Source: Aminomonas paucivorans DSM 12260 (GTDB lineage Bacteria; Synergistota; Synergistia; Synergistales; Synergistaceae). Taken from it: a stretch of 64,000 nucleotides of DNA. Position 1 is the stretch's first letter, and every line of letters starts with the position of its first letter. Positions 45,479-60,517 of the stretch are shown here, piece by piece. Under the pieces are notes generated by a model, which saw only the letters and a program-made list of their open reading frames with translations, ran no database searches and was not told the DNA's origin. Both the position numbers and the translations under genes were made by a program. Where the stretch lies: NCBI RefSeq assembly GCF_000165795.1, contig NZ_CM001022.1, positions 1,054,001 through 1,118,000 on the forward strand, given 5' to 3'.

Positions 45479-45505
45479 TTAGCACTCGACCGCAAAGAGT
45501 GCTAG
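45479..45505 (+). promoter_or_regulatory. CIRCE operator (HrcA binding site)
   Basis: TTAGCACTC, nine bases, GAGTGCTAG: the CIRCE inverted repeat, with one mismatch from the canonical TTAGCACTC-N9-GAGTGCTAA. It is placed just after the predicted transcription start and 23 bp before the hrcA ATG, so HrcA represses its own operon. Confidence 0.95.
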
Positions 45506-45527
45506 CGACCCGGAGGGGGTGGCGGGG

Positions 45528-46541
45528 ATGCTGACGGAACGGCAGCTGGAAGTGGTCCTCTCGGTGGTGTACGAGTACATCCGAAGCGGCGAGAGCGTCG
45601 GTTCCCGGACGGTCTCCAAGCGCTACCTGACCGGCCACAGCGCCGCCACCATCCGCAACGAGATGTCCGACCTGGAGGACCTGGGTTTTCTCTCCCAGCC
45701 CCACGCCTCCGCGGGGCGGATCCCCACCACCCGGGCCTACCGCCTCTACGTGGACTCGGTGCTTCAGCGTAGACGCATCGCCGGGGCGGGGGGCTTCGAG
45801 TGGCCCGCATCCCTGCGGGACCACCGGAACGACCTGGAGGGTTCCTTGAGCGTCGCCTCGGACCTGTTGAGCCGCCTGACCCAATATGTGGGAGTGGCGG
45901 CCCTGGCGCCCCTTCGGGAGATGAGCCTCCAGCGGGTGGATTTCCTGCGCCTGGACACCGCCCATGCCCTGGTCATCGTAGTGCTCCAGGGGGGACTGAT
46001 CCACCATCGCACCGTGACCCTTCCCTGCGATCTGTCCCAGGACGCCCTGGACGAGCTTTCTCGGCGCATCAACCTGGCCACCTCCGGTCGCACCTGGGAG
46101 GAGGTCCGCACGGTGCTCCAGCAGTACCTCCTCCACGAACTGGAGGAGTTCTCCCGCTCCTGTCGGGTGGCCCTGGGGGCGTTGGAGGAGATCCTCGCCG
46201 CCGCGTCTCCCCGGGTCTTCACGGGAACAGTGAGCCAGATGCTCAACCTGCCGGACTTTCAGGATCTGGGGCGACTCCAGGCTCTGGTGTCCCTCCTGGA
46301 ACAGGAATCGGGCCTGGCGGATATGGTGGCCCGCTGCTCCCTGGAGCAGGGGGTCAAGGTGGTCATCGGCGAGGAGAGCGACGTGCCGGAGATGAAGGAA
46401 TGCTCCCTGGTGCTGGCTTCCAGCGTGCACCGGGACAACCGCGCCATCTTGGGGATCATCGGTCCCCGAAGGATGGACTACGAACGGGTCATCTCGGTCC
46501 TCGAAGAGGCCCTGACGGCCCTTTCGTTTCAGGAGGAGTGA
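45528..46541 (+). CDS. hrcA: Heat-inducible transcription repressor HrcA
   Basis: A 337-residue repressor of chaperone genes. The winged-helix N-terminus contains SVVYEYIRSGESVGSRTVSKRY, GHSAATIRNEMSDLEDLGFL and SQPHASAGRIPTTRAYRLYVD. The GAF-like dimerisation domain (about 150-330) ends with the typical IIGPRRMDYERVISVLE. It binds the CIRCE element directly upstream and depends on GroEL in known systems. The ATG at 45528 lies at good distance from GGAGGGGG; the GTG at 45519 is too close to it. grpE starts one base after its stop. Confidence 0.95.
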   Translation: MLTERQLEVVLSVVYEYIRSGESVGSRTVSKRYLTGHSAATIRNEMSDLEDLGFLSQPHASAGRIPTTRAYRLYVDSVLQRRRIAGAGGFEWPASLRDHRNDLEGSLSVASDLLSRLTQYVGVAALAPLREMSLQRVDFLRLDTAHALVIVVLQGGLIHHRTVTLPCDLSQDALDELSRRINLATSGRTWEEVRTVLQQYLLHELEEFSRSCRVALGALEEILAAASPRVFTGTVSQMLNLPDFQDLGRLQALVSLLEQESGLADMVARCSLEQGVKVVIGEESDVPEMKECSLVLASSVHRDNRAILGIIGPRRMDYERVISVLEEALTALSFQEE

Positions 46542-46542
46542 C

Positions 46543-47118
46543 ATGAAGGGACAGAACCCGGAAACCTCGGGGCAGCATCCGGCCCCGGAGCAGGAGCCCG
46601 TCAAGGGGCACAGCAGGGGGCACGGCAAGGCGGAGCTGGAAGGACGCCTCAGGGAACTGGAGGAGGCCCATGACAAGCTGAAGCAGGACTACGAGGACCT
46701 TCTGCAGGAGGCGTCCCGGAACAAGGCGGATTTCGTCAACTACCGCAACCGGGTGGAACGGGACCGATCCCGGGACCGCAAGCTGGCGGCGGAGGGGGCG
46801 GTGGAGCTGCTCCTGCCGGTGCTGGACAACCTGGGTCGGACCCTGCAGGCCCTGGAGGGGGCGGACGCCTCCCTCCTCAAGGGCATCTCCATGGTGGAAA
46901 GGCAGTTCGTGGGAGCCCTGGAATCCCTGGGCCTGGCGCGCATCGACGCTGCAGGGGCCTTCGACCCGAACCTCCACGAGGCAGTGGGGGTGGAGCCCAC
47001 CTCCGACCCGGACCGGGACGGGACCATCGTCCAGGAGCTTCAGGGGGGGTACCTCCTGGGGGGGAAGGTGATCCGCCCCGCCCGGGTCCGGGTGGCCCGG
47101 CACGAGGGGGGAGCCTGA
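46543..47118 (+). CDS. grpE: Nucleotide exchange factor GrpE
   Basis: A 191-residue co-chaperone that accelerates ADP release from DnaK. It has an N-terminal unstructured acidic/His-rich part, a long coiled coil (LEGRLRELEEAHDKLKQDYEDLLQEA, then FVNYRNRVERD) and the C-terminal beta wing (FDPNLHEAVGVEPTSD, GTIVQELQGGYLLGGKVIRPARVRVA). It begins one base after hrcA and 136 bp before dnaK. The intergenic stretch before dnaK is GC-rich and able to form hairpins but has no T-run. Confidence 0.95.
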   Translation: MKGQNPETSGQHPAPEQEPVKGHSRGHGKAELEGRLRELEEAHDKLKQDYEDLLQEASRNKADFVNYRNRVERDRSRDRKLAAEGAVELLLPVLDNLGRTLQALEGADASLLKGISMVERQFVGALESLGLARIDAAGAFDPNLHEAVGVEPTSDPDRDGTIVQELQGGYLLGGKVIRPARVRVARHEGGA

Positions 47119-47253
47119 CCTCGGGAAACCGTGAAGGAGCCACGGGTCGGCCCGGGAGGCGCAGCCGCCTGAGGGGGGCCGGCCGGATCTGTGAAAAACG
47201 GAACCACATCGAAGAAACTCATCTCTTTCGCGAGAGGAAAGAAGGGATTGTCC

Positions 47254-49095
47254 ATGGCAAAGGTCATCGGCATCGACTTGGGAACCACCAACAGCTGCGT
47301 CGCCGTCAAGGAAGGGGACAACATCACCGTCATCCCCAACGCGGAGGGCAACCGCACCACCCCCTCCGTGGTGGCCTTCACCAAGGAAGGGGAGCGGCTG
47401 GTGGGGCAGCTGGCCAAACGTCAGGCCATCGTGAACGCGGACCGCACCATCATCTCCATCAAGCGCAAGATGGGGTCGGACCACAAGACCCTCATCGACG
47501 GCAAGAACTACAGCCCTCAGGAGATCTCCTCCATGATCCTGCAGAAGATGAAGCGGGATGCGGAGGAGTACCTGGGGGAGACGGTCACCCAGGCGGTGGT
47601 CACCTGTCCCGCCTACTTTACCGACGCCCAGCGCCAGGCCACCAAAGACGCGGGCACCATCGCGGGGTTGGAGGTGCTTCGGGTCATCAATGAGCCCACC
47701 GCCGCCTGCCTGGCCTACGGGGTGAACAAGGAGGGGGACCACAAGATCCTGGTGTTCGACCTCGGCGGGGGAACCTTCGACGTGTCCATCCTGGACGTGG
47801 GCGAGGGGGTCTTCGAGGTGCTGGCCACCTCCGGAGACAACCTGCTGGGTGGGGACGACTGGGACCTCCGGGTGGTGGACTGGATGGCGGAGGAGTTCCG
47901 CAAGGCCGAGGGCATCGACCTGAAGAAGGACCGCATGGCCTTCCAGCGCCTCCGGGAGGCGGCAGAGAAGGCCAAGGTGGAGCTGTCCTCCATGACGGAG
48001 ACCACCATCTCCCTGCCCTTCATCACCGCGGACCAGAACGGCCCCAAGCACCTGGAGCTGACCCTCACCCGGGCGAAGTTCGAGGACATGACCCAGGACC
48101 TGCTGGAGCGCACCGTGGGTCCCACCAAGCGGGCTCTGGCGGACGCGGGCCTGGAGGCTTCCCAGGTGGACAAGATCCTCCTGGTGGGAGGCTCCACCCG
48201 CATGCCCTCGGTACAGCGGAAGGTGAAGGAGCTGCTGGGCAAGGAGCCTACCAAGGGCATCAACCCGGACGAGTGCGTCGCCGTGGGGGCGGCCATCCAG
48301 GGGGCGGTGCTCTCCGGGGAGAAGAGCGGCATCGTGCTGGTGGACGTGACGCCCCTTTCCCTGGGTCTGGAGACCCTGGGAGGCGTGTTCACCAAGATCA
48401 TCGAGCGCAACACCGCCATCCCCTGCTCCAAGAGTCAGGTCTTCACCACCGCAGCGGACAGCCAGCCCCAGGTGGAGGTCCGGGTGCTCCAGGGGGAGCG
48501 GCCCATGGCCAACGACAACGTGGAGCTGGGCAAGTTCTTCCTGGACGGCATCCCCGCCGCCCCTCGGGGGATCCCCCAGATCGAGGTGACCTTCGAGGTG
48601 GACGCCAACGGCATCGTCAACGTCACCGCCAAGGACAAGGGCACCGGCAAGGCCCAGCACATCACCATCCAGTCCTCCCGGCTCTCGGAGGCGGAGATCG
48701 ACAAGCTCCGCAAGGACGCGGAGAGCCATGAGGACGAGGACAACAAGAAAAAGGAGCTGGCGGAGGCCCGCAACGAGGGGGAGAGCTTCGCCTACAACGC
48801 CGAGAAGACCCTGAAGGACCTGGGGGACAAGCTCACCCCAGAGGAGCGGACCCCCGTGGAGGAGAAGATCGCCGCCCTGCGGGAGACCCTGGCGAAGGAA
48901 GACGCAGAAGCCATCCGAAAGGCCCTGGAGGAGCTGACCCAGGCTCTGCACGGCATCTCCGAGAAGATCTACGCCCACGCCCAGGAAAAGGCCCAGGCGG
49001 AGCAGGGCGAGACCCCGCCCCCCGGAGGGGGTGCCTCGGACGAGGCCGCCGGTCCCACGGTGGACGCGGAGTTCCACGACGCGGGGCAGGCCTAG
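47254..49095 (+). CDS. dnaK: Chaperone DnaK (Hsp70)
   Basis: A 613-residue Hsp70. The ATPase domain has [62 protein letters not shown] and [15 protein letters not shown]. The interdomain linker and substrate domain include [18 protein letters not shown]-like [20 protein letters not shown], and a full helical lid with a Gly/Pro-rich tail ends in [10 protein letters not shown]. It folds proteins with DnaJ and GrpE. The ATG at 47254 follows GAAAGAAGGGATTGTCC. It is the canonical housekeeping Hsp70, in contrast to the compact paralogue at 53.3 kb. Confidence 0.97.
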
Positions 49096-49108
49096 GGAGT
49101 GAGGATTC

Positions 49109-50266
49109 GTGGCGACTCCCGGTAAGAAGGACTACTACGACATCCTGGGGGTGACCCGGGAGGCCACGCCGGAGGACATCAAGAAGGCCTACCGCAAGAT
49201 GGCCCGCAAGTACCACCCCGACGCCAACCCGGGGAACGGGGATGCGGAGAAGAAGTTCAAAGAGATCAACGAGGCCTACGAGGTCCTGAACGATCCCTCC
49301 AAACGGGCCCAGTACGACCAGTTCGGCTATGTGGGGGACGCTCCTCCGGGGGGCAACCCCTTCGAAGGGTTCGGAGGCGCCGGGGGAGACCCCTTCGGAG
49401 ACCTCTTCGGGGACCTCTTCGGGGATCTCTTCGGCGGTGGCGGCGGGGGGCGGACCCGGGCCCAGCAGGCCAACGCCCCCCGTCGGGGGGCAGACGTGGA
49501 GACCACCCTCACGGTCACCCTGGAGGAGGCCTACCGGGGGGCGTCGCGGGAGCTGCGCATCCCCCGTTGGGAGGCCTGCGCCCGCTGCGGGGGCACCGGA
49601 GCGGAACCGGGGACCAAGGTGGAGACGTGTCCCGCCTGTGGCGGCCGGGGGCAGGTGGAACAGGCGGTGCGGACCCCCTTCGGCCAGTTCGTCCAGGTGA
49701 CGCCCTGCGTCCGATGCAAGGGGCAGGGGAAGGTGATCTCCAGCCCCTGCAAGGAGTGCAAGGGCCAGGGGCGGGTCCGGGTGCCCCACAAGGTGGAGGT
49801 GCGCATCCCCCCGGGCATCGACACGGGAACCCGGCTGCGCATGACCGGAGAGGGGGAGGCGGGGTTCCAGGGCGGGCCTCCCGGGGACCTCTTCCTGCTG
49901 GTGGAGGTGACCCCGGACCCGCGCTTCGAGCGCCAAGGGGCAGACCTGCACGTTCGGGTGAACCTGGCGTTTCCCCAGGTGGCCCTGGGGTGCGAGGTCC
50001 AGGTTCCCACCTTCGACGGCCCCCAGACCCTGGAGGTGCCCTCGGGCACCCAGCCCGGGTCGGTGCTCCGGGTTCGGGGCAAGGGAATGCCCCGCCTTCG
50101 GGGCGGCGGGCGGGGGGACCTGCTGGTCCACGTCCGGGTGGAGGTGCCCAAGAACCTGACGGAGCGCCAGCGGGGGCTCCTGGAGGCCCTGGCCCAGGAG
50201 ATGAAGGTCTCGGTGCGCCAGGAGGAGGGCATCCTGGAGAAGCTGAAAGGGTGGTTCGGCGGGTAG
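49109..50266 (+). CDS. dnaJ: Chaperone DnaJ (Hsp40)
   Basis: A 385-residue type A J protein. The J domain has the HPD motif in YHPDANPGN near residue 36. A Gly/Phe-rich linker ([20 protein letters not shown], with FGDL repeats) follows. Four CxxCxGxG zinc repeats ([32 protein letters not shown]) lie about 155-215, and the C-terminal substrate domains contain [19 protein letters not shown]. It delivers substrates to DnaK. It starts at GTG 49109 behind GGGAGTGAGGATTC, 13 bp after dnaK. A terminator follows. Confidence 0.96.
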
Positions 50267-50293: not shown

Positions 50294-50330
50294 GGGGGGA
50301 AGCGCAAGAGCGCTTCCCCCCTTCATTTTG
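50294..50330 (+). terminator. Terminator after dnaJ
   Basis: GGGGGGAAGCG pairs with CGCTTCCCCCC over 11 bp, followed by TTCATTTT. It separates the CIRCE-controlled genes from prmA and those downstream. Confidence 0.82.
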
Positions 50331-50358
50331 GGTGGGAAGCTCAAGGGAGGCCTGCGGG

Positions 50359-51216
50359 ATGGACAGCTTCTGGTGGTACATCACCCTTCGTGGGGGCAAC
50401 GGGCAGGAGGAGATCCTGTCCACGGCGGTGGATCTGGCGGGGAGCATCGGTTCGGAGGTGCAGGAGTTCCCCGAGGGGGTTCGGGTCCGGGCGTACTTTC
50501 GCTCCAACGAAGACCTGGGGACCTGGCAGATGCGCCTTCGTCAGGCCCTGGAGCCCTGGCCGGAGGTGAAGGTGGAGGACACGGGGCGCATCGAGAACCA
50601 GCCCTGGTACCGGGAGTGCGAGGAGGCCTTCCCCCCCCTGGAGGTGGGAAGCCGCTTCGTGGTCCTGGCCCCCTGGCATCGGGGCAAGGAGTCCCCGGGG
50701 CGCATCCCCCTGGTGGTGAAGCCCGGAAGCGCCTTCGGCACGGGGTACCACGAGAGCACCCAGATCGTCCTGGAGCTGATGGAGACCCGGGTGAAGTCCG
50801 GAGACTCGGTGGTGGACGTGGGCACGGGCTCGGGGATCCTCTCTCTGGGGGCCCTCAAGTTGGGGGCGGCCTCGGTGGTGGCTCGGGACCTGGACGGAGC
50901 GGTGCTGGCGGAGGTGGAGGAGAACCTGGACCTCAACGATCTCCGGGGGGCGGTGCGTCTGGAGGAGGGAGACCTGCTCCGGGGCTTTGCGGGGCCCGTG
51001 GATCTGCTCACCGCCAACATCGTCCTGGAACCCCTCCTGCAGCTGTTGCCCGATGTGCGCCGGGTCCTGAAGCCCGGGGGGTGGGCCCTCTTCTCCGGGC
51101 TGCTGGGGACGGAGAAGCAGACCTTCCTCGCCGCACTGGAGGAGGCGGGGCTTCATCCCGCAGAGGACCGTGCCCGGGGGGAGTGGTGGGGTGTTGCAGC
51201 CCAGAATCCGGCTTGA
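50359..51216 (+). CDS. prmA: Ribosomal protein L11 methyltransferase
   Basis: A 285-residue SAM-dependent methyltransferase that trimethylates ribosomal protein L11. It has an N-terminal L11-recognition domain (about 1-110), then KPGSAFGTGYHESTQIVLELME, the SAM motif I DVGTGSGILSLGALKLGA and the catalytic-pocket LLTANIVLEPLLQLLPDV. The ATG at 50359 follows AAGGGAGGCCTGCGGG. rsmE overlaps its 3' end by 26 bp. The dnaJ-prmA-rsmE-mtaB order is the same as in Bacillus (yqeTUV). Confidence 0.93.
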   Translation: MDSFWWYITLRGGNGQEEILSTAVDLAGSIGSEVQEFPEGVRVRAYFRSNEDLGTWQMRLRQALEPWPEVKVEDTGRIENQPWYRECEEAFPPLEVGSRFVVLAPWHRGKESPGRIPLVVKPGSAFGTGYHESTQIVLELMETRVKSGDSVVDVGTGSGILSLGALKLGAASVVARDLDGAVLAEVEENLDLNDLRGAVRLEEGDLLRGFAGPVDLLTANIVLEPLLQLLPDVRRVLKPGGWALFSGLLGTEKQTFLAALEEAGLHPAEDRARGEWWGVAAQNPA

Positions 51217-51922
51217 GGCCTGCACCCTCCTCGGGGAGGGGCGCTACCTCCTGGACGAGGCCCAGGCCCACCACCTGACCCGGGTGCTCCGCCGGTACGA
51301 AGGAGCCCTGCTGGAAGGCCTGTCCGGGGAGGGGCGGGTCCTCCTGCGCCTGCGCCTGGGAGCGGGACGGGTGGAGGCGGAGGAGGTGGAGCGGGTGCCG
51401 GAGTCCCCGGATCTCCTTCGGGTGGTGTTGGTCGTGGCCCTCCTGAAGGCGGACCAGTTCGAACCTCTGCTGCGCATGGCCGCGGAGTTCGGGGTGGCGG
51501 AGATCCGCCTGCTGGCCTGCGAGCGCTCCGTCCCTCGCCTGGAATCCTGCCGGGAGGAGGGAAAGCTCTCCCGCTGGCGGCGGATCCTGGACGAGTCCAC
51601 CCGCCAGTCCGGCTCCCTCCGTCCCCCGACGCTCCATCCCCCCGTACTGGTCCGGGAGCTGGAGGAGGCGACGCTGCCTCCCTCCCGCTTCGGGGCCTTT
51701 CTGGCCCCCGGAACGGTCCCCCTGGGACGGTGTCTTCCCGTGGAGGCCGCCGCCGTGGCCGTGGGTCCCGAGGGGGACTGGTCGGACCAGGAAGTGGAGA
51801 CCCTGAGGGCGAAGGGATTCGTCCCGGTGGGTCTGGGGCCCCGGATCCTTCGGGCCTCCACTGCCGCCGCGGCGGCCTGCGGGGCCCTGCGCCTCTCCTG
51901 GGAGGCCCGAAAGACCCCATGA
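51191..51922 (+). CDS. rsmE: 16S rRNA (uracil-1498-N3)-methyltransferase
   Basis: A 243-residue SPOUT-class enzyme. A PUA-like N-terminal domain (DEAQAHHLTRVLRRYEGALLEG) precedes the knotted C-terminal domain, with VALLKADQFEPLLRMAAEFGV, the glycine loop AVGPEGDWSDQEVETLRAKG and GLGPRILRASTAAAAACGA. In most RsmE the last motif is ILRxETA; here it is ILRASTA. Two starts, GTG 51191 and TTG 51194, share one ribosome site (GGGGGGAG), and GTG is chosen. It lies inside the prmA end and overlaps mtaB (ATGA). Confidence 0.91.
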   Translation: MLQPRIRLEACTLLGEGRYLLDEAQAHHLTRVLRRYEGALLEGLSGEGRVLLRLRLGAGRVEAEEVERVPESPDLLRVVLVVALLKADQFEPLLRMAAEFGVAEIRLLACERSVPRLESCREEGKLSRWRRILDESTRQSGSLRPPTLHPPVLVRELEEATLPPSRFGAFLAPGTVPLGRCLPVEAAAVAVGPEGDWSDQEVETLRAKGFVPVGLGPRILRASTAAAAACGALRLSWEARKTP

Positions 51923-53283
51923 CTTCCTCCCTTTCCCTGGCGGGCTACCGGGTGGGGTTCGTGGTGCTGGGATGTCGCACCAATCAGTACGAAGGGGACG
52001 CCCTGGCCTCGGAGCTGGCGGAGCGGGGGGCGATCCTGGTGGACCCTTCGTCGGAGGACCTGGACGGGGTGGTGCTGCTCACCTGCACCGTCACCGCCGT
52101 GGCGGACCGGAAGGTGCGGCAGGAGCTGCGCCGCCTGCGTCGTCGCCATCCCCGGGCGATCCTGGTGGCGGCGGGCTGCTGGGCCCAAGAGGCGGACCCC
52201 CGGGAAGCCCGACGTCTGGGGGCGGACCACCTGGTGGGCAACCGTCTGAAGGCGGCGATCCCGGACCTCCTGAGCCGCCTCCGGGCCGGGGAGGAGGTCC
52301 CCTTCCTGAACCGCCGGGACGTGGGGGTTTGTGAGGATTGGGACGATCTGCGTCTCTCCCGGACCTGTCGTCACACCCGGGCCTTCGTGAAGGTCCAGGA
52401 CGGGTGCTCCCACGGGTGCCGATACTGCATCGTCCCCCGGGTTCGGGGACGTTCCGTCTCCCGCCCCCCCGAGGACGTGCTGGAGGAGGTGCGGGGGCTG
52501 GTGGGCTCGGGGTGCCGGGAGGTGGTCCTCACGGGGGTCCACCTGGGGCTCTACGGAAGGGATCGGGGCACGGATCTGGGGGAGCTGGTGAAGCGGCTTG
52601 CCCGGGTGGAGGGGCTTGTGCGCCTCCGCTTCGGTTCTCTGGAGCCCTTCGGTCTGGGAGAATCCCTCCTGGATGTTCTGGGGGAGACGGAGATCTTCTG
52701 CCCTCACCTGCACCTGCCCCTACAGAGCGGGGACGACGGGGTCCTGGACCGCATGGGCCGGGGCTACACCGCCGCGGCCTTTGCTCGACTGGTGGAAGCG
52801 GCCCGCAGACGCCTGGGGGAAGACCTGCACGTCAGCACGGATCTCCTGGTGGGCTTCCCCGGGGAGGAGGAGGTGCCCTTCCGGAACACCCTGGACCTGG
52901 TGGAGACCCTGGAGCTGGGGAGGCTTCACGTCTTCCCCTATTCCCCCCGGGCCGGAACCCCCGCCGCCGCCTGGCCCCGCCCCGACCCCGCTGCCCTTCG
53001 GGAGCGGGTGCAGCGGGCCCTGGGGCTGGGACGGACCCTGCTGGACCGGTTCGCCTCCCGGTTCCTGGGACGGGAGGTGGAGGTCCTGGTGGAGCGGGCG
53101 TCGGAGGGGGAGGGGGATGGTCTCTGCCCCGCCTTCGTCCGGGTTCGGGGGCGGATGAGTGTTTCCGCCGGGTCCCTGGGGTGCCTGGTCCCCCGGTCCG
53201 TGCGGGACGGGGTCCTTCGGGACCGGTCTCCGGAGGAGGGGGACGAACCCCGTCCTGGACCGGAAGAGGACGTGCTACCATGA
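51919..53283 (+). CDS. mtaB: tRNA t6A37 methylthiotransferase (MtaB)
   Basis: A 454-residue radical-SAM methylthiotransferase that adds a 2-methylthio group to t6A37 in tRNA. The N-terminal UPF0004 domain provides cysteines in VVLGCRTNQYEGD, LLTCTVTAVADRKVRQ and VAAGCWAQ. The radical-SAM cluster is CSHGCRYCIVPRVRGRSVSR (CxxxCxxC). GVHLGLYGRDRG and HLHLPLQSGDDGVLDRMGRGY, then a C-terminal TRAM domain (about 370-435) complete the family pattern. It overlaps rsmE by ATGA. It is the last gene before the inserted Hsp70/J pair. Confidence 0.93.
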   Translation: MTSSLSLAGYRVGFVVLGCRTNQYEGDALASELAERGAILVDPSSEDLDGVVLLTCTVTAVADRKVRQELRRLRRRHPRAILVAAGCWAQEADPREARRLGADHLVGNRLKAAIPDLLSRLRAGEEVPFLNRRDVGVCEDWDDLRLSRTCRHTRAFVKVQDGCSHGCRYCIVPRVRGRSVSRPPEDVLEEVRGLVGSGCREVVLTGVHLGLYGRDRGTDLGELVKRLARVEGLVRLRFGSLEPFGLGESLLDVLGETEIFCPHLHLPLQSGDDGVLDRMGRGYTAAAFARLVEAARRRLGEDLHVSTDLLVGFPGEEEVPFRNTLDLVETLELGRLHVFPYSPRAGTPAAAWPRPDPAALRERVQRALGLGRTLLDRFASRFLGREVEVLVERASEGEGDGLCPAFVRVRGRMSVSAGSLGCLVPRSVRDGVLRDRSPEEGDEPRPGPEEDVLP

Positions 53284-53313
53284 GGTCCGAAACGGCATGA
53301 GGAGGGTAGCGAC

Positions 53314-54879
53314 CTGAAGGAACCTGTCATCGGCATCGATCTGGGAACTCGGTACGCCTTGGCCGCCCACTGTCCCCCCGGCGGCTCTCCTCGGGTGTTG
53401 CCCAACCGGTGGGGGCGCTGGAGGACTCCCTCCTACGTCGCCCTGGTGGGGCGCGACCTGGTGGCGGGAGAGGAGGCGGCCCGCGTCGCCCTGACCTCTC
53501 CGGGCCGGGCCTGGTGGGACGTGAAGCGCAAGCTGGGCACCGACTGGGTGGCCCGAAGCGGCGGCCACGCCTACGGGGCGGAAGACCTCCTGGTCCCCCT
53601 CCTCTCCCTGGTGCGGGAGGACGCGGAGGCCTCCCTGGGCAGCTTCGTCCGCTCCGGCGTGTTGGCGGTGCCCGCCCACTTCGGCTTCCCGGAACGGGGC
53701 GCCCTGGCCCGGGCTGCCCGAAAGGCGGGGTTCGAGGAGATCCGCATCGTCAACGAGCCCACCGCCGCCACCCTGTCCGTGGGTCCCCAGGGGCGTTTCC
53801 TGGTACTGGACTTCGGGGGGGGCACCCTGGACCTCTCGGTGGTGGAGGGGGAAAACGGGGTCTTCCAGGTCCTGGACAGTCTGGGGCGCAGCGACCTGGG
53901 GGGGTACGATCTGGACCGTCGGTTGGCCCAGTGGCTCTGGAGGCGCCTGGGAGGGGGGGCTCCCAGCTTCGAGGACCCCCGGTGGTTCCACCTGCTTCGG
54001 GAGGCGGAACAGGTGAAGATTGCCCTCTCCGACGCCCGAACCTTCCTCTGGGTTCCCCCCAAGGGATGGGGTTCCGACGAGCCCGTGACGGTGCAGCGGG
54101 AGGACCTGGAACGCCTCATTTCCCCGGTGCTGGACGAAATCCTTCGGCTGGTGGAGCGCCTCTTCCGGCGGCACCGTCCCCATCGACTTCTCCTCGTGGG
54201 GGGGAGCAGCCGCATCCCCCTCCTGCGACAGCGCCTGGCGGAACGGGTGGCGGAGCCGGAACACCTGCGGGCCTGTCCCGACGAGGCGGTGGCCCTGGGG
54301 GCCGCCCTCTTCGCCCGACAGGGACGGGAACGGCTCCTCCTGGACGTGTTGAGCCAGCCCTTGGGGTTGGCCCAGGCGGACGGTTCGGTGAGCCTTCTCC
54401 TGGCGCGGGGAACCCCTCTTCCCGCAGAGGCGCGGCAGGAGCTTTGGGCCCGAGAAGCGGGCCCCCTGGTCCTCACGGTGGTCCAGGGAGAGGGTCCCTT
54501 GCGGGACGCGGGGCGGATCCTTCAGCGCATCGACCTGCCCTTCGCCTGCCAGGGAGAGAGGGTGGAGATCCTCTTCAAGGTGGACGGCAGCGGCCTGCTC
54601 ACCGTGGAGGTCTTCCAGCGCAGCGGCACCAGCCGCCGGGTGGTGGCCCTGGAGGGGCGGGGGGATGTGGGTTCCGTGGACCTGGAGGCGGAACTGCGTC
54701 TTCGGCAGGATCGCATCGTCCGGCTGAGCCTGGCCCTGGATCCGGCCCACCAGGAGCGCCTTTCCTCTCTGTGGGGGCAGTTCCGCCTCTTTCGCGGGGA
54801 GGAGGAGGGGCTGAGCCAGGAGGCCCTGGACGTGCTGGATCGGTTGATCCTGGACCTGGAGCGGGTGGTGGGATCGTGA
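53314..54879 (+). CDS. Compact, divergent Hsp70 paralogue (CTG start)
   Basis: A 521-residue Hsp70-like ATPase. The start is CTG at 53314, 8 bp after AGGAGG: the in-frame stop at 53281 excludes anything longer, no ATG, GTG or TTG intervenes, and starting later (TTG 53359) would remove the phosphate-1 motif [13 protein letters not shown]. Other Hsp70 motifs are IVNEPTAATLSV, LVLDFGGGTLDLSVVEG, LLLVGGSSRIPLLRQ and DEAVALGAALFA. A shortened substrate domain (LSQPLGLAQADGSVSLL through LFKVDGSGLLTVEVF) and only about 70 lid residues follow. It resembles HscC-type Hsp70s. The J protein gene overlaps its stop (GTGA). Its clients are unknown. Confidence 0.85.
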   Translation: MKEPVIGIDLGTRYALAAHCPPGGSPRVLPNRWGRWRTPSYVALVGRDLVAGEEAARVALTSPGRAWWDVKRKLGTDWVARSGGHAYGAEDLLVPLLSLVREDAEASLGSFVRSGVLAVPAHFGFPERGALARAARKAGFEEIRIVNEPTAATLSVGPQGRFLVLDFGGGTLDLSVVEGENGVFQVLDSLGRSDLGGYDLDRRLAQWLWRRLGGGAPSFEDPRWFHLLREAEQVKIALSDARTFLWVPPKGWGSDEPVTVQREDLERLISPVLDEILRLVERLFRRHRPHRLLLVGGSSRIPLLRQRLAERVAEPEHLRACPDEAVALGAALFARQGRERLLLDVLSQPLGLAQADGSVSLLLARGTPLPAEARQELWAREAGPLVLTVVQGEGPLRDAGRILQRIDLPFACQGERVEILFKVDGSGLLTVEVFQRSGTSRRVVALEGRGDVGSVDLEAELRLRQDRIVRLSLALDPAHQERLSSLWGQFRLFRGEEEGLSQEALDVLDRLILDLERVVGS

Positions 54880-55925
54880 GCCTGGAGATGGATTTCCGCA
54901 CCCTGGGGCTGCCCCCCGGTTCCGACTGGGAGGACGTCAAATCCGCCTTCCGCCGTCTGGCCCGGACCTACCACCCCGACGTGGCGGGGCCGGAGCACTC
55001 CCGAAGGTTCGCGGAGATCACCCGAGCCTACATGTCCCTGAAGGAATCCATCCAAGCCCCCTCTGTAGGGGTGCCCTCCCGACCCGTCGAGAGGCCTCGG
55101 ACGTCCCGAGGGCGCCGGGGGACCTCCGGAACCCCCTGGTGGGATCCCGGAAGGTTCGTGGGGAGATTGCAGCGCCTCTGGCGCTCCGGAAGAGCCTCCT
55201 TTGCCCGAAGGCGGCCCGCGGAGGACACCCAGAGGTCTCCCGCCCGGGATCGGTTCGTGGAGGAGGCCCTGGACCGGGCGGAGATGCACTTCCGCCAGAT
55301 CCTGGGGCGCCGCGTCGCCGCTCGGGAGGAGGCCCTTCGGGCCTCTCTGAAGCGGCGCCTGGAGAGCCGCCACCCCGGTGTGGTCCTCCTGGCCCTGGAT
55401 GAGCTGGCCCGCAGCCCCGACCCGGGTTATGCCCGCAAGGCCCTGGTGGAGCACCTGAACAGAGAGAGGCCCGATCCGGAGTCCCTCCGCCGGGTGCTTT
55501 CCCTTTTCCCCGGAGCGGACCCCGAGGGGGGGCTTGCCCGGGCCCTGTCCCGTTGGGGCGGGGCCTACGCCCCCTCGGAGGCCCTCTCGGTGATCCGGTG
55601 GCTCCGGGGGCGGGTCACGGGGGCCTCCACGGGGGGAGAACGGAGGGAGTGGCTTCGCCCCTTCCTCACTAACCCCAGCCCGGAGGTGGCGGCTTTGGCC
55701 CTCCAGAACTGGCCCGCCGGAACGGGGCTCCCCGACGTCTCCGACCTGATCCGCCTCTTCCGCCAGGAGGATGCGGCCCTTTGGGTGGCCCTGCTTCGCC
55801 TGATCCGGCGGGAGGGGGTGTCCCCCTGGATGCTCCCCCACCTGGAGCGGCTGAGCCGGACCCATCCCGCCGCCCCCGTTCGGGTGTGGGCTGCGGCTAT
55901 TGTGCGAGACCGGGCAGTCGGATAA
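54876..55925 (+). CDS. J-domain protein with helical-repeat C-terminus, partner of the compact Hsp70
   Basis: A 349-residue protein. The N-terminal J domain (about residues 5-70) has HPD at 33-35 in ARTYHPDVAGPEHSRRFAEI. A basic, Arg/Pro-rich linker (RPVERPRTSRGRRG) follows. Residues 140-345 are helix pairs resembling HEAT/ARM repeats: HPGVVLLALDELARSPDPGYARKAL, NPSPEVAALALQNWPAG, EDAALWVALLRLIRREGVS, APVRVWAAAIVRD. There are no zinc or Gly/Phe regions, so this is a type C J protein with its own client-binding module. GTG 54876 overlaps the Hsp70 stop (GTGA); ATG 54888 is the alternative start. Confidence 0.83.
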   Translation: MSLEMDFRTLGLPPGSDWEDVKSAFRRLARTYHPDVAGPEHSRRFAEITRAYMSLKESIQAPSVGVPSRPVERPRTSRGRRGTSGTPWWDPGRFVGRLQRLWRSGRASFARRRPAEDTQRSPARDRFVEEALDRAEMHFRQILGRRVAAREEALRASLKRRLESRHPGVVLLALDELARSPDPGYARKALVEHLNRERPDPESLRRVLSLFPGADPEGGLARALSRWGGAYAPSEALSVIRWLRGRVTGASTGGERREWLRPFLTNPSPEVAALALQNWPAGTGLPDVSDLIRLFRQEDAALWVALLRLIRREGVSPWMLPHLERLSRTHPAAPVRVWAAAIVRDRAVG

Positions 55926-55959: not shown

Positions 55960-56301
55960 GTGAGCGGTACGTGCTTGTTTTGCCGCATCCTCGCGGGGGA
56001 ACTCCCGGCGGAGCGGGTTTACGAGGACGACGACGTCCTCGCGTTCCACGATCTCCGACCCCAGGCGCCGGTGCACGTGCTGGTGATCCCTAAGCAGCAT
56101 GTGTCCGGGGCCGCTGAGGCTCCCTCCCCGGAACTCTGGGGAGGCCTCATGGCGGGAGCCGTTCGGGTTGCCGCTCGATTGGGGTTGGACCAGGACGGCT
56201 ACCGGCTGGTGATCAACAGCGGAGAAGGAGCCGGGCAGACGATCCCCCACCTGCACGTTCACGTGCTTGCGGGCCGACGGTTCCATTGGCCGCCGGGATA
56301 G
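55960..56301 (+). CDS. HIT-family protein (Hint-like nucleotide hydrolase)
   Basis: A 113-residue histidine-triad protein: zinc-type CLFC near the N-terminus (SGTCLFCRILAGELPAERVYED), AFHDLRPQAPVHVLVIPKQH, and the catalytic HLHVHVL near the end. Hint enzymes hydrolyse nucleoside phosphoramidates and adenylates. It starts at GTG 55960 behind CAGGGGGGGTCTTC. It is followed 30 bp later by rpsU. The short C-terminus ends directly after the triad (GRRFHWPPG). Confidence 0.9.
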   Translation: MSGTCLFCRILAGELPAERVYEDDDVLAFHDLRPQAPVHVLVIPKQHVSGAAEAPSPELWGGLMAGAVRVAARLGLDQDGYRLVINSGEGAGQTIPHLHVHVLAGRRFHWPPG

Positions 56302-56331: not shown

Positions 56332-56517
56332 ATGACCACCGTCGTTCGTCGAGAGAACGAATCCATTGAGGACGCGCTGAAGCGTTTCAAGCGCGAACTC
56401 CGCAAGGTGGGTGTGCTTCGGGAGGCTCGGAAGCACGAGCATTACGAGAAGCCGAGCGAAATCAAGAAGAAGAAGAAGGCCGCCACGGCCAGGAACAGGA
56501 ACAAGAGGCCGGTGTGA
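56332..56517 (+). CDS. rpsU: 30S ribosomal protein S21
   Basis: A 61-residue ribosomal protein: [40 protein letters not shown] and a basic tail. It is needed for initiation on natural mRNAs. The ATG follows AAAGGGGGGAACAGGG. Its stop overlaps the start of the yqeY gene (TGATG), the standard rpsU-yqeY pairing. Confidence 0.96.
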
Positions 56518-56975
56518 TGAGCGACCCCCTGGTGGAGCGTGTCCAGTCCGAACTCGTCGCGGCCATGAAGCGCCGCGACGAGCTTTCCTTGTCTGTCCTG
56601 CGCATGTTGAAGTCCGCCATCCAGCTGGCTCAGGTGGAAAAGGGCCGCGATGCGGTCCTGACGGACGAGGAAGTGGTGACCCTGGTGCAGCGGCTGGTCA
56701 AACAGCGCCAAGAGGCGGCGGAGCAGTACCGGGCGGGCGGTGCCGCGGACCGGGCGGATCGGGAGCTGGAGGAAGCCCGCTTCCTCCAGGGTTACCTCCC
56801 GGAGCAGCTTTCCGACGAGGAACTGGAGTCTCTGACCCGTCGGGTTGCCCAGGATACCGGGGCCGCGTCCCCCAAGGACCTGGGAAAGGTCATGGGACGG
56901 GTCATGCCCCTGGTGAAGGGACGGGCGGAGGGCAACCGGGTGCGGGCTGCAGCCCTGAAGGTCCTCGGTTCCTGA
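56517..56975 (+). CDS. yqeY: GatB/YqeY-domain protein
   Basis: A 152-residue protein of the YqeY family, related to the tail domain of the GatB amidotransferase subunit: VQSELVAAMKRRDELSLSVLRMLKSAIQ, EVVTLVQRLVKQRQEAAEQYRAGG, EARFLQGYLPEQLSDEEL and DLGKVMGRVMPLVKGRAEG. It binds tRNA or the ribosome in a way not yet fully defined. The ATG at 56517 is preferred over the adjacent GTG at 56514. It overlaps the rpsU stop. A strong terminator follows. Confidence 0.92.
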   Translation: MSDPLVERVQSELVAAMKRRDELSLSVLRMLKSAIQLAQVEKGRDAVLTDEEVVTLVQRLVKQRQEAAEQYRAGGAADRADRELEEARFLQGYLPEQLSDEELESLTRRVAQDTGAASPKDLGKVMGRVMPLVKGRAEGNRVRAAALKVLGS

Positions 56976-57166: not shown

Positions 57167-57214
57167 CCCCTAAATCTGGTGTATGATTCCCTCTGTGATC
57201 CCTATATGTAGGAG
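57167..57214 (+). promoter_or_regulatory. Two NrdR-box-like sites upstream of nrdR
   Basis: CCCCTAAATCTGGTGT (57167-57182) and TCCCTATATGTAGGAG (57199-57214) each fit the core of the NrdR box (ACACwATATaTwGtGT-like) at 10-11 of 16 positions. Their starts are exactly 32 bp apart, three helical turns, as seen for paired NrdR boxes. A TATGAT box lies at 57182-57187 between them. Box 2 overlaps the nrdR ribosome site region. Confidence 0.6.
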
Positions 57215-57221
57215 GTCTGCG

Positions 57222-57701
57222 ATGCTCTGTCCTCGCTGCGAGCTCTTGGAGACCCGGGTCCTGGAGACTCGAACCGCCGACGGAGGTCGGGTGGTCCGGC
57301 GCCGGAGGGAGTGCCCGGGGTGCGGTTACCGGTTCACCACCTACGAGAGACCGGAGGAACGGCAGCTTCTCTGGGTGGTGAAGAAGGACGGACGCCGGGA
57401 GAGCTTCGACCGCACCAAGCTCCTCAAGGGGCTGGTGCGGGCCTGCGAGAAGCTCCCCGTGCCCCTGGACCGCCTGGAGGACGCCGCCGCCCGCATCGAG
57501 GGCAAACTGCGGGAGTCCGAACAGGGAGAGGTTTCGAGCCTGCAGGTGGGGGATCTGGCCATGGAGGAACTTCGCAAGCTGCACAAGGTGGCCTACGTGC
57601 GCTTCGCGTCGGTGTACCGGGAGTTTACCGATCTGTCCAATTTCGCTACGGAGATCGCCCGGCTGATCGAGGAAAGGGAGGAGAGGCATGGACACGAATA
57701 A
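57222..57701 (+). CDS. nrdR: Transcriptional repressor NrdR
   Basis: A 159-residue repressor of ribonucleotide reductase genes. The zinc ribbon is MLCPRCELLETRVLETR and CPGCGYRFTTYERPE; the ATP-cone (WVVKKDGRRESFDRTKLLKGLVRAC, LRKLHKVAYVRFASVYREF) senses ATP/dATP. The usual first motif CPxCxxxDSRVxDSR is slightly changed (LETRVLETR). The ATG at 57222 follows GTAGGAGGTCTGCG. It overlaps nrdD by 14 bp, so the repressor is co-expressed with its target. Confidence 0.94.
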   Translation: MLCPRCELLETRVLETRTADGGRVVRRRRECPGCGYRFTTYERPEERQLLWVVKKDGRRESFDRTKLLKGLVRACEKLPVPLDRLEDAAARIEGKLRESEQGEVSSLQVGDLAMEELRKLHKVAYVRFASVYREFTDLSNFATEIARLIEEREERHGHE

Positions 57702-59823
57702 TCCGGATCTTCTGCTGGAAGATCGCCCCCGCTCAGGAAGACAGCAGCACCTGTTCGGTCCCCAGGGGGAATCCACGGACCTGGCCCTCATGGTGGACGC
57801 CCTGGCCCAGGAGGAGCGCTCTCCCTGGGACGCGGAACGGATCCGCAACGCCCTCGTCCTGGAGGCGGGGGTGGACCCCGCCACGGCGGGGGAAATCGCC
57901 GCGGAGGTGGAGGACGACCTGATCCGCTACGGACGGGAGCACGTCACCACCCGCCTGATCCGGGAGCTGGTGAACGTCAAGCTCTTCCAGCGGGGACTGG
58001 ACGCCAAGCTGGCGGACCACAGCCAGATCGGATTGCCCCTCCACGATCTGGAGTCCATGCTCCTCCAGCCCAACCACGAGAACAGCAACACCACCCACAA
58101 CCCCGAGTCCATCAACCTCTCCATCGCGGAGCGGGTCCTCAAGGAGTACGCCCTCACCAAGGTTTTCTCCCCCGACGTGGCGGCGGCGCACCTGCGGGGG
58201 GATCTGCACCTCCACGACCTGGGGATGGTGAACCGTCCCTACTGCTCCGGCCAGAGCATGGCCTACGTGGCCCGCTACGGCCTCAACATGCCCTCCATCA
58301 CCAGCGTTTCCGCCCCGGCGCAGCACGCCGACGTGCTGCTGGCCCACATCCTCAAGATGACCTCGGTGCTCCAGAACAACTTCGCCGGGGCCATCGGCTG
58401 GGACGCGGTGAACACCTTCTTCGCCCCCTTCCTGGAAGGAGCTTCGGACGCCCAGTGCCGCCAGCTGGCCCAGCAGCTCATCTTCGAGTTCAACCAGCTG
58501 GCGGGGGGGCGGGGAGGACAGGTGGCCTTCACGGACATCAACCTCTACTATGAAGTGCCCAACCACTTCCGGGACGTGCCTGCCATCGGCCCGGGGGGCA
58601 AGTTCACGGGCAAGACCTACGGGGACTATGCGGAGGAGTCCAAGCGGTTCCTCCGGGCCCTCTTCAAAGTGTATCTGGAAGGGGACAGCCGGGGGCATCC
58701 CTTCTTCTTCCCCAAGCCCCTCCTGCACATCACGGACTACTTCTTCCAGGAGCCTGGATGGGAGGAGTTCCTGGAGCTGGCCTGCCTGGTGGCGGCGGAG
58801 AAGGGGAACACCTACTTCGTCTTCGATCGGGGAGGGGTGGCGAAGCTTTCGGAGTGCTGCCGTCTCTCCTTCGAGCTGACCCCGGAGGACCTGGAAGAGG
58901 CCAAGCATCCCTGGAAGATGCGCTACTGCGCCCTCCAGAACGTGACCCTCAACCTGCCCCGCATCGCCTATCGCTGCGGCGGGGACCAGGAACTGCTCTT
59001 CGACCTGCTGGACCAGGACATGGAGCTGGCCGCCAAGGCGCACCTGCAGAAGCGGCGCTTCATCGAGGAGATCCTCTCTCTGGGCAAAAAAGGTCCCCTG
59101 GCGGCGTTGTGCGTGGATCACGACGGAGAGGGGTACCTGCGCCTTCGCAAGGCCAGCCACCTCATCGGCATCCTGGGGCTCAACGAGATGGTCCAGGTGG
59201 CCACGGGCAAGGAACTTCACGAGAGCGAGGAGGCCATGAAGCTGGGGCTGGCGGTGGTGCAGTACATGGATCTCAAGTGCCAGCAGCTGGCGGAGCGCCA
59301 CGGCCTCAAGATGGTGCTGGAGCAGACCCCCGCGGAGAGCACCGCCTACCGGTTCGCCAAGCTGGACGTGAAGGCCTTCCCCGACCAGGCTCCCCGGGTG
59401 GTGAAGGGGGAACCCAAGAACGGGGAGATCTACTACACCAACAGCACCCACTTCAACTACCGGGAGGGCCTGGACCCGGTGCAGCGGGTGGTGGAGGAGG
59501 GCAAGTACCACCCCATGATCAAGGCGGGAGCCCTCACCCACGTGTGGATGGGGGAGCATCGCCCCAACCCCCTTTCCCTGGCCTCCTTCGTCCAGAAGGT
59601 TTTCCGGCACTCCGAGAACGCCCAGGTGGCCTTCAGCCCGGAGTTCACGGTGTGCAACGTCTGCGGTCGCGTGACCCGGGGGTTGCAGGATTCCTGCGGG
59701 GCCTGCGGCTCTCCCGACGTGGACGGCATCACCCGGATCACGGGCTACTTCACCCGGACCTCCTCCTGGAACGGGGGCAAGAGGGGGGAACTGCGGGATC
59801 GGGCCCGGGTGAAGGTCTCCTGA
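57688..59823 (+). CDS. nrdD: Anaerobic (class III) ribonucleoside-triphosphate reductase
   Basis: A 711-residue glycyl-radical enzyme making dNTPs under strictly anaerobic conditions. A shortened ATP-cone-like N-terminus (about 35-110) is followed by the barrel: ENSNTTHNPESINLSIAERV, GDLHLHDLGMVNRPYCSGQS, TSVLQNNFAGAIGWDAVNTF. The zinc site is CNVCGRV and CGACGSP near 660-680. The radical glycine lies in RITGYFTRTSSWNGGKRGEL near the C-terminus, of the Thermotoga/archaeal type rather than the E. coli RVCGY type. The ATG at 57688 overlaps nrdR. nrdG follows 10 bp later. Confidence 0.95.
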   Translation: MDTNNPDLLLEDRPRSGRQQHLFGPQGESTDLALMVDALAQEERSPWDAERIRNALVLEAGVDPATAGEIAAEVEDDLIRYGREHVTTRLIRELVNVKLFQRGLDAKLADHSQIGLPLHDLESMLLQPNHENSNTTHNPESINLSIAERVLKEYALTKVFSPDVAAAHLRGDLHLHDLGMVNRPYCSGQSMAYVARYGLNMPSITSVSAPAQHADVLLAHILKMTSVLQNNFAGAIGWDAVNTFFAPFLEGASDAQCRQLAQQLIFEFNQLAGGRGGQVAFTDINLYYEVPNHFRDVPAIGPGGKFTGKTYGDYAEESKRFLRALFKVYLEGDSRGHPFFFPKPLLHITDYFFQEPGWEEFLELACLVAAEKGNTYFVFDRGGVAKLSECCRLSFELTPEDLEEAKHPWKMRYCALQNVTLNLPRIAYRCGGDQELLFDLLDQDMELAAKAHLQKRRFIEEILSLGKKGPLAALCVDHDGEGYLRLRKASHLIGILGLNEMVQVATGKELHESEEAMKLGLAVVQYMDLKCQQLAERHGLKMVLEQTPAESTAYRFAKLDVKAFPDQAPRVVKGEPKNGEIYYTNSTHFNYREGLDPVQRVVEEGKYHPMIKAGALTHVWMGEHRPNPLSLASFVQKVFRHSENAQVAFSPEFTVCNVCGRVTRGLQDSCGACGSPDVDGITRITGYFTRTSSWNGGKRGELRDRARVKVS

Positions 59824-59833
59824 GGGACGCTTC

Positions 59834-60517
59834 GTGGGCACGGTGACTTCTTTCGAGGTGGGCGGGTACCTGCCCACCTCTTTTTTGGACTGGGATGGTC
59901 GCGTGGCGGCGGCGGTGTTCACCCGGGGATGCAACCTGCGGTGCCCCTTCTGCCACAACCCCGAGCTGGTTCTGGGGCGCTCCGAGTCCCTGGACCCGGA
60001 GGAGATCCTGGGCGACCTCCGGCGTCGGCGGGACTTTCTGGACGGAGTGGCGGTGAGCGGAGGCGAACCCTGTCTCCAGTCTGGCCTGGCTTCCTTCCTC
60101 CGCCGGGTCGTCGACCTGGGCCTGGGGGTGAAGCTGGACACCAACGGAACCCTGCCCCAGGTCCTGGAACCTTTGCTGGAGGAGGGGCTGGTGGACCAGG
60201 TGGCCCTGGACGTCAAGGCCCCCTGGGGGCTTTACGACCGTCTCAGCGGGGTGGAGGGGGCGGCGGAAAAGGTGAAGGCCTCCCTGGCCCTGCTGCACCG
60301 CAGCGGCGTGGACTACGAGCTGCGGACCACCTGGGTTCCGGCGCTTCTTTCCGAGGCGGACCTGCTGGAGCTTCGAGACCAACTGGAGGGAGAACCCCGC
60401 TGGGTGGTTCAGGCCTTTCGCCCCGGGCGTTGCCTCGATCCCGCCCTGGACGAGACTGCCCCGGCCTCCCTGGATCGAATGGTGGTCCTTCTTCCGGGAG
60501 TGACCCTTCGGGGTTGA
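59834..60517 (+). CDS. nrdG: Anaerobic ribonucleotide reductase activating protein (radical SAM)
   Basis: A 227-residue glycyl-radical activase. The [4Fe-4S]/SAM motif is FTRGCNLRCPFCHNPELV (CxxxCxxC), then VAVSGGEPCLQSGL, LGVKLDTNGTLPQVL and VALDVKAPWGLYDRL. It generates the Gly radical on NrdD. Size and motifs suit the longer NrdG2/YjjW-free type found with Thermotoga-like NrdD. It starts at GTG 59834 behind TGAGGGACGCTTC, 10 bp after nrdD. A terminator follows the stop. Confidence 0.93.
   Translation: MGTVTSFEVGGYLPTSFLDWDGRVAAAVFTRGCNLRCPFCHNPELVLGRSESLDPEEILGDLRRRRDFLDGVAVSGGEPCLQSGLASFLRRVVDLGLGVKLDTNGTLPQVLEPLLEEGLVDQVALDVKAPWGLYDRLSGVEGAAEKVKASLALLHRSGVDYELRTTWVPALLSEADLLELRDQLEGEPRWVVQAFRPGRCLDPALDETAPASLDRMVVLLPGVTLRG

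Follow-up and report, generated by a model that had tools for sequence, protein, structure and literature searches.

A compact, divergent Hsp70 and a helical-repeat J-domain protein encoded by overlapping genes form a candidate dedicated chaperone pair in Synergistota

Introduction

Bacterial Hsp70s other than DnaK can have J proteins of their own. HscC from Escherichia coli is a short, divergent Hsp70 of 556 aa that does not have the GrpE signature of DnaK, and the genes for the class-C J proteins DjlB and DjlC lie near its own. HscA and HscB, in turn, are a dedicated Hsp70/J pair for Fe-S assembly, encoded by adjacent genes, in which the GrpE loop of the Hsp70 is deleted. A recent review limits prokaryotic Hsp70s to three types (PMC8215388). 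Besides, Synergistetes are among the phyla with multiple dnaK genes (17.4% of 23 genomes), and duplicated bacterial DnaKs, such as MxDnaK2, can take specialised roles (PMC11019930). We found nothing in the literature searched on the partners of Hsp70s from Synergistota, or on HEAT-type J proteins in bacteria.

Here we analyse a stretch of 64,000 nucleotides, hereafter the window, from the complete 2.63 Mb genome of the Synergistota Aminomonas paucivorans DSM 12260, whose first-pass annotation proposed a second Hsp70 with its own J protein. We designate these two proteins HspB and JH (Table 1).

Table 1. Features of the hspB-JH locus and its surroundings; coordinates are those of the window
Feature	Coordinates	Strand	Remarks
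CIRCE operator	45479..45505	+	One mismatch; precedes hrcA; no other CIRCE in the window
hrcA-grpE-dnaK-dnaJ	45519..50266	+	Classical CIRCE-type heat-shock unit
Terminator-like GC hairpin	50294..50321	+	After dnaJ; hairpin in the same gap of 11 relatives folded
prmA-rsmE-mtaB	50332..53283	+	Probably co-transcribed with hspB-JH, upstream in the same unit
Shine-Dalgarno sequence AGGAGGG	53300..53306	+	Before the hspB start
hspB, Hsp70 paralogue	53314..54879	+	521 aa; CTG start
HspB domains			NBD, 1-338; linker LLLDVL, 341-346; SBD-beta, about 345-436; three-helix mini-lid, 457-520
JH, class-C J-domain protein	54876..55925	+	349 aa; GTG start, overlapping by GTGA with the end of hspB
J domain of JH	54876..55055	+	aa 1-60; HPD at 33-35
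Isolated amphipathic helix of the JH linker	55146..55208	+	aa 91-111; includes GRFVGRLQRLWRSGRASF
ARM/HEAT-like superhelix of JH	55239..55919	+	aa 122-348
HIT-family (hinT-like) gene	55960..56301	+	Follows the pair in several relatives too
rpsU (S21)	56332..56517	+	Then yqeY (56514-56975) and nrdR (57183-57701)

Results

HspB is a compact Hsp70 outside the known families

The 521-aa HspB can only be read with a CTG start, because the stretch from the in-frame stop (53281) to the GIDLGT motif contains no ATG, GTG or TTG; the automatic ORF call, which begins at 53359, leaves out the phosphate-1 motif. The CTG is a credible start codon, and the 521-aa reading is probably right, because AGGAGGG lies 7 nt upstream and orthologues show TTG at the same codon (compare TTGAAGGAGCCC, from locus L046, with CTGAAGGAACCT, from the window). 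With a start of this kind gene callers begin inside the NBD, and database copies may thus miss the phosphate-1 motif. Given this start, the second Hsp70 of 521 residues proposed initially is borne out, together with its three ATP motifs (GIDLGT, DFGGGTLDLS and GGSSRIP), and its overlap with the J-protein gene by GTGA is exact, with GTG at 54876 and TGA at 54877-54879.

HspB scores 206.9 bits against Pfam HSP70 (cut-off 20.6), and its AlphaFold model (pLDDT 84.5) comprises a DnaK-like NBD, which matches DnaK structures with a VIA Z of about 40, followed by the linker, SBD-beta and three short helices. The NBD fold, the phosphate-1, phosphate-2 and adenosine motifs, the linker and SBD-beta all place HspB within the Hsp70 superfamily. 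Its initial description as nearly lidless was roughly right, although the model still gives the three helices at 457-520, and a compact, short-lidded protein is thus supported. The features of DnaK are missing: HspB lacks a full helical lid, and the alignment shows that the GrpE-signature loop (GPKH region of DnaK), and likewise the D326 loop, are absent from all HspB proteins, in nearly all of which the T12 position is R. Scores against NCBIfam equivalogs are far below the cut-offs for DnaK (194.5 vs 822.55 bits, and 189 vs 648) and HscA (204.5 vs 708.55 bits), and the L1,2 insertion of HscC is not found in the HspB alignment. A tree built from 49 Hsp70s groups the HspB proteins in one clade (100/100 support; stem length, 1.41 changes per site), separate from DnaK, HscA, HscC and a third Hsp70 from Synergistota; HscC and HscA are long branches in this tree, and the placement of each of them is unsure. 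On the tree and the scores we reject that HspB is a plain duplicate of DnaK or an orthologue of HscC or HscA, and no isc genes were seen in the mapped neighbourhood of the locus.

The third Hsp70, of 567-574 aa and with a canonical GIDLGTTNS motif, was found in five relatives of the same family (L127-L131, in G031, G027, G010, G035 and G015), and also forms its own clade. Additionally, in families f10 and f7 the NBD of a DnaK (L132, L133 and L134) has a long insert, as Gram-negative DnaKs do and in contrast to the short DnaK encoded in the hrcA unit; its gene adjoins that of a J protein that has no zinc region and looks CbpA-like.

JH joins a J domain to a predicted array of helical repeats

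JH scores 40.5 bits against Pfam DnaJ (cut-off 27.8), a profile that matches 31 of 31 orthologues, and the HPD motif is invariant among 26 JH sequences. Neither a zinc finger nor a Gly/Phe region was seen, and Pfam found no further DnaJ domain in JH. By sequence and Pfam JH is therefore a class-C J-domain protein; the first-pass annotation had noted the lack of both regions, and HPD is at the position given there.

In the AlphaFold model (pLDDT 87.9), the J domain is followed by a disordered linker with a single helix and by a superhelix, whose repeats have pLDDT values mostly >90. The superhelix aligns with ARM proteins, such as beta-catenin (VIA Z 13.3, rmsd 5.6, 196 residues aligned), a likeness for which a common arrangement of helical repeats may suffice. 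The HEAT-like repeats initially proposed find some support in the model, and in Pfam HEAT and HEAT_2 matches in, respectively, 6/31 and 4/31 orthologues, but Pfam does not recognize them in the JH of the window. The linker helix of this protein is amphipathic beyond shuffled sequences (p 0.007); similar helices occur in many JH from families f1 and f6 (e.g. SIFKSFWKKLFG) and are missing from those of families f5 and f9, so that this feature is lineage-specific. It may serve as an anchor to the membrane or to another protein. The charge of the linker is not conserved, being +11 in the window protein and ranging from -10 to +16.

hspB and JH are usually kept or lost together

The genome contains only two Hsp70s (DnaK and HspB; two further PF00012 matches, L004 and L005, were read as MreB-like), only two J-domain proteins (DnaJ and JH) and a single GrpE. 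We detected HspB in 73 and JH in 116 of 188 Synergistota genomes, with 68 genomes containing both, 5 only HspB, 48 only JH and 67 neither; the HspB count leaves out G064, a match at threshold that looks like DnaK, and the JH count leaves out the J-domain-only matches of G062-G064 and G187. Fisher's p for co-occurrence is tiny, but these genomes are not independent. Wherever both intact genes were mapped on a contig, hspB and JH are direct neighbours downstream of mtaB; some families have one extra gene that separates mtaB from hspB.

The exceptions are of two kinds. Two of the five HspB-only cases are at contig ends (G086 and G145), and a third is a fragmented, 66%-complete genome that was not mapped (G156), whereas the absence of JH from G139 and G146 is explained neither by a contig end nor by an incomplete assembly. 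In G146, hspB is relocated, with an mfd-like gene on one side and a transporter gene on the other (L141, 4405-5994). Conversely, the 48 JH-only cases comprise two contig ends and 46 genomes from three related genera of one family. Their stand-alone JH genes are elsewhere in the genome, or near nrdR in G151; HPD is intact in those proteins that we read, and their differing neighbours gave no hint of a client. In G053 both genes are cleanly gone, leaving mtaB, the extra gene, hinT and rpsU. In all, retention and loss usually affect both genes together, and JH is the part able to stand alone. The idea that both proteins always co-occur therefore holds as strong co-occurrence and adjacency, but not as a strict rule, given the JH-only genera and the two genomes with HspB alone.

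Scanning 84,980 genomes, one per species, with two short HspB peptide patterns, which could miss divergent relatives, we retrieved 38 loci, of which 33 are orthologues, all from Synergistota; the remaining five loci encode Hsp70s that are either ordinary or very distant, and we discarded them as orthologues. A full-length JH profile (E 1e-20) found no match in 348 genomes from the phylum of Cytobacillus, nor in 199 genomes from that of a Phycisphaeraceae genome, in searches that scored few candidates, used partly overlapping genome draws and had no positive control in those groups. The pair is old and, as far as our scans reached, occurs only in the phylum Synergistota.

HspB and JH appear adapted to each other

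We evaluated rate coupling in 20 genomes as the partial correlation of pairwise distances after removing DnaK, MtaB, PrmA and HrcA. HspB and JH are coupled with a partial r of 0.72 (permutation p 0.002), compared with 0.04 for HspB and DnaJ. Across five subsets, the HspB-JH coupling ranks first or second among 28 pairs of neighbouring genes, and a high rank was also obtained for the positive control, DnaK-DnaJ. The coupling of HspB with MtaB is about 0 in three sets, the widest among them, and 0.26-0.34 in the other two, and part of the HspB-JH signal could be due to shared lineage effects. HspB is also coupled with GrpE in two subsets (0.53-0.67), and not in the others, which calls for caution because it speaks against a GrpE-independent HspB.

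Several residues aligned with the contacts of DnaK and DnaJ (PMC8215388) changed on both sides. The K48 position is K in 14/14 DnaJ from Synergistota and never K/R in 54 rows of HspB-associated JH (rows overlap between two alignments), while position D477, with which it pairs in DnaK, is occupied by D/E/N in 17/17 DnaK and by K/R in 25/43 HspB. Likewise, the E217 position is Q/H in all 43 HspB and the Q378 position is never Q. D211 is absent from HspB but also from the DnaK of Synergistota, so its loss says nothing. The basic residues of helix II and HPD in JH, as well as P419 and the linker D393 in HspB, are kept. Judged from these aligned residues, the changes match the expectation for two separated Hsp70/J pairs, and HspB and JH look adapted to each other rather than to DnaK.

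JH can apparently do without HspB and, because it persists in three genera that have none, DnaK is then probably its partner. From here it could be argued that JH is primarily an adaptor of DnaK everywhere, with HspB as a dispensable accessory or regulator (for instance, a holdase or a J-domain competitor). The wider distribution of JH, its HPD kept without HspB in the genera read and the K at the K48 position of one JH-only protein (L057) fit this explanation, which we nevertheless consider unlikely: the JH-only genomes, being from related genera, reflect few events, and when HspB is present JH has lost the DnaK-type K48 and its rate tracks that of HspB, not that of DnaK.

The pair most likely lies outside the CIRCE-controlled unit

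The gene order is hrcA-grpE-dnaK-dnaJ-prmA-rsmE-mtaB-hspB-JH-hinT-rpsU-yqeY-nrdR, which confirms the order proposed initially, with the pair following mtaB. CIRCE is only found near hrcA in all 22 related loci scanned, and a stable hairpin separates dnaJ from prmA in the window and in 11/11 relatives folded, with a T-rich tail in most of them. The pair thus most likely falls outside the CIRCE-controlled unit, as had been claimed, and the positions of CIRCE and of the hairpin indicate that hspB-JH most likely belongs to the prmA-rsmE-mtaB unit rather than to the heat-shock unit.

The constant neighbours of the pair are prmA, mtaB and rpsU, as well as rsmE in most cases, and the JH of the window has a basic linker (+11), which could suggest a ribosome- or translation-linked pair, with the logic of RAC/Ssb. 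This translation-gene neighbourhood is, however, an ancient gene arrangement, similar to that of Bacillus, which also occurs where the pair is absent, and linker charge is not conserved, making such a role improbable.

In families f9 and f2, the extra gene that separates mtaB from hspB (ca. 370 aa; L054, 9136-10251; L079, 9362-10477; L055, 9640-10737) looks like a branched-polyamine synthase, and is kept in G053, which lost the pair. After nrdR, positions 57688-60517 of the window contain genes resembling an anaerobic ribonucleotide reductase and a radical-SAM activase. PADLOC gave no match to an anti-phage system.

Catalytic residues are conserved except in one decaying lineage

HspB is conserved across at least six families, and 41 of 43 proteins keep D8, T11, K70, E171, D194 and D201. 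The two exceptions make up family f2 (two genomes), where HspB shows K70M, E171K and D194H and a broken linker that lost D393, and where JH is truncated after the first repeat, ending at the same residue. Selection on hspB appears relaxed in f2 (pN/pS 0.25), while hspB is under purifying selection in four other species pairs (0.035-0.10), as is JH (0.12-0.14). The pair can therefore decay, and this lineage is losing catalysis. Degraded ATPase motifs in relatives, which the first-pass annotation had set as the sign of a decaying duplicate, were found in f2 alone. In one f2 genome (L056), the DNA downstream of the truncated JH has frames that look like a small toxin-antitoxin pair, which may have caused the truncation; the DNA at that place is different in the second f2 genome.

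That HspB is in general a decaying or pseudo-Hsp70 duplicate with no ATPase-driven function, to which the state of f2, the R at T12 in nearly all proteins and the CTG start, which may mean low expression in the window organism, could be added as arguments, is an improbable explanation, given the catalytic residues, the selection on hspB in the other four species pairs and the conservation across families.

Discussion

We consider it probable that HspB and JH act together as a dedicated Hsp70/class-C J machine, separate from DnaK-DnaJ-GrpE. The computed basis for this proposal comprises the genes and their domains, the catalytic and HPD residues, co-occurrence, adjacency, rate coupling, interface changes, the HspB clade and the hairpin after dnaJ. 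The dedicated machine outside the CIRCE unit that was initially suggested therefore finds support in the co-occurrence, the adjacency and the ATPase residues, intact in all families but one, although the pair is not strictly obligate. HspB and JH would then pair physically, with JH stimulating the ATPase of HspB; HspB would act independently of GrpE, and its clients would be restricted and perhaps membrane-proximal.

In such a machine, JH would be the targeting part, its ARM/HEAT superhelix holding a restricted set of clients and presenting them to HspB, while the amphipathic helix of the linker, in the many lineages that have it, might help targeting, possibly at the membrane. The J domain would dock through HPD on the LLLDVL linker of HspB and trigger ATP hydrolysis by its intact Hsp70 ATPase. 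HspB would grip the client through its diverged SBD-beta and, because this can only be covered by a three-helix mini-lid, binding is probably loose and cycling fast. Nucleotide exchange may not need GrpE, since HspB lacks the GrpE loop.

A broader proposal, which we put forward tentatively as possible rather than probable, is that HspB-JH represents a fourth class of bacterial Hsp70 machine, after those of DnaK, HscA and HscC: phylum-specific and GrpE-independent, with an interface made orthogonal to that of DnaK/DnaJ by matched charge losses, and with HEAT-J delivery of clients, perhaps at the membrane. HspB-JH would then add a distinct type to the three of the review (PMC8215388). How two Hsp70/J systems are kept separate in one cell is an open question of chaperone biology, and this organism offers a minimal setting, with two Hsp70s, two J proteins and named residues predicted to separate their interfaces. 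Nature also provides variants: JH-only genomes, genomes from which the pair was lost, and a family in which HspB is catalytically broken and JH is truncated. Because of these three circumstances, partner specificity is directly testable.

Among the Hsp70s compared, the DnaK from the same genome shares with HspB the NBD fold, the catalytic residues and the linker, but they are only about 31% identical and HspB differs by T12->R, E217->Q, D477->K and Q378->F, by the lack of the D326 and GrpE loops, and by a lid of three short helices. Duplicated DnaKs such as MxDnaK2 are likewise Hsp70 paralogues with specialised roles, but the published survey (PMC11019930) counts DnaK-type copies, and HspB is far below the DnaK equivalog cut-offs and outside the DnaK branch. 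HscC-DjlB/DjlC shares with HspB-JH a short divergent Hsp70, nearby class-C J genes and the missing GrpE signature; however, HscC is 27.6% identical to HspB, falls outside its clade and is the only one of the two with the L1,2 insertion, and hscC is convergent with djlC, unlike the overlapping hspB and JH. DjlB and DjlC also have a hydrophobic segment at the C terminus, with a maximum KD19 of 2.0-2.4, whereas the values for JH are 0.8-1.6; their sequence match to JH is at chance level. HscA-HscB is similarly a dedicated pair from adjacent genes with a deleted GrpE loop, but the HspB score of 204 bits falls far short of the HscA cut-off (708), and JH matches HscB only over part of the J domain. 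By analogy with these systems, our best reading is that HspB-JH works like HscC-DjlB/C or HscA-HscB, being a member of neither family.
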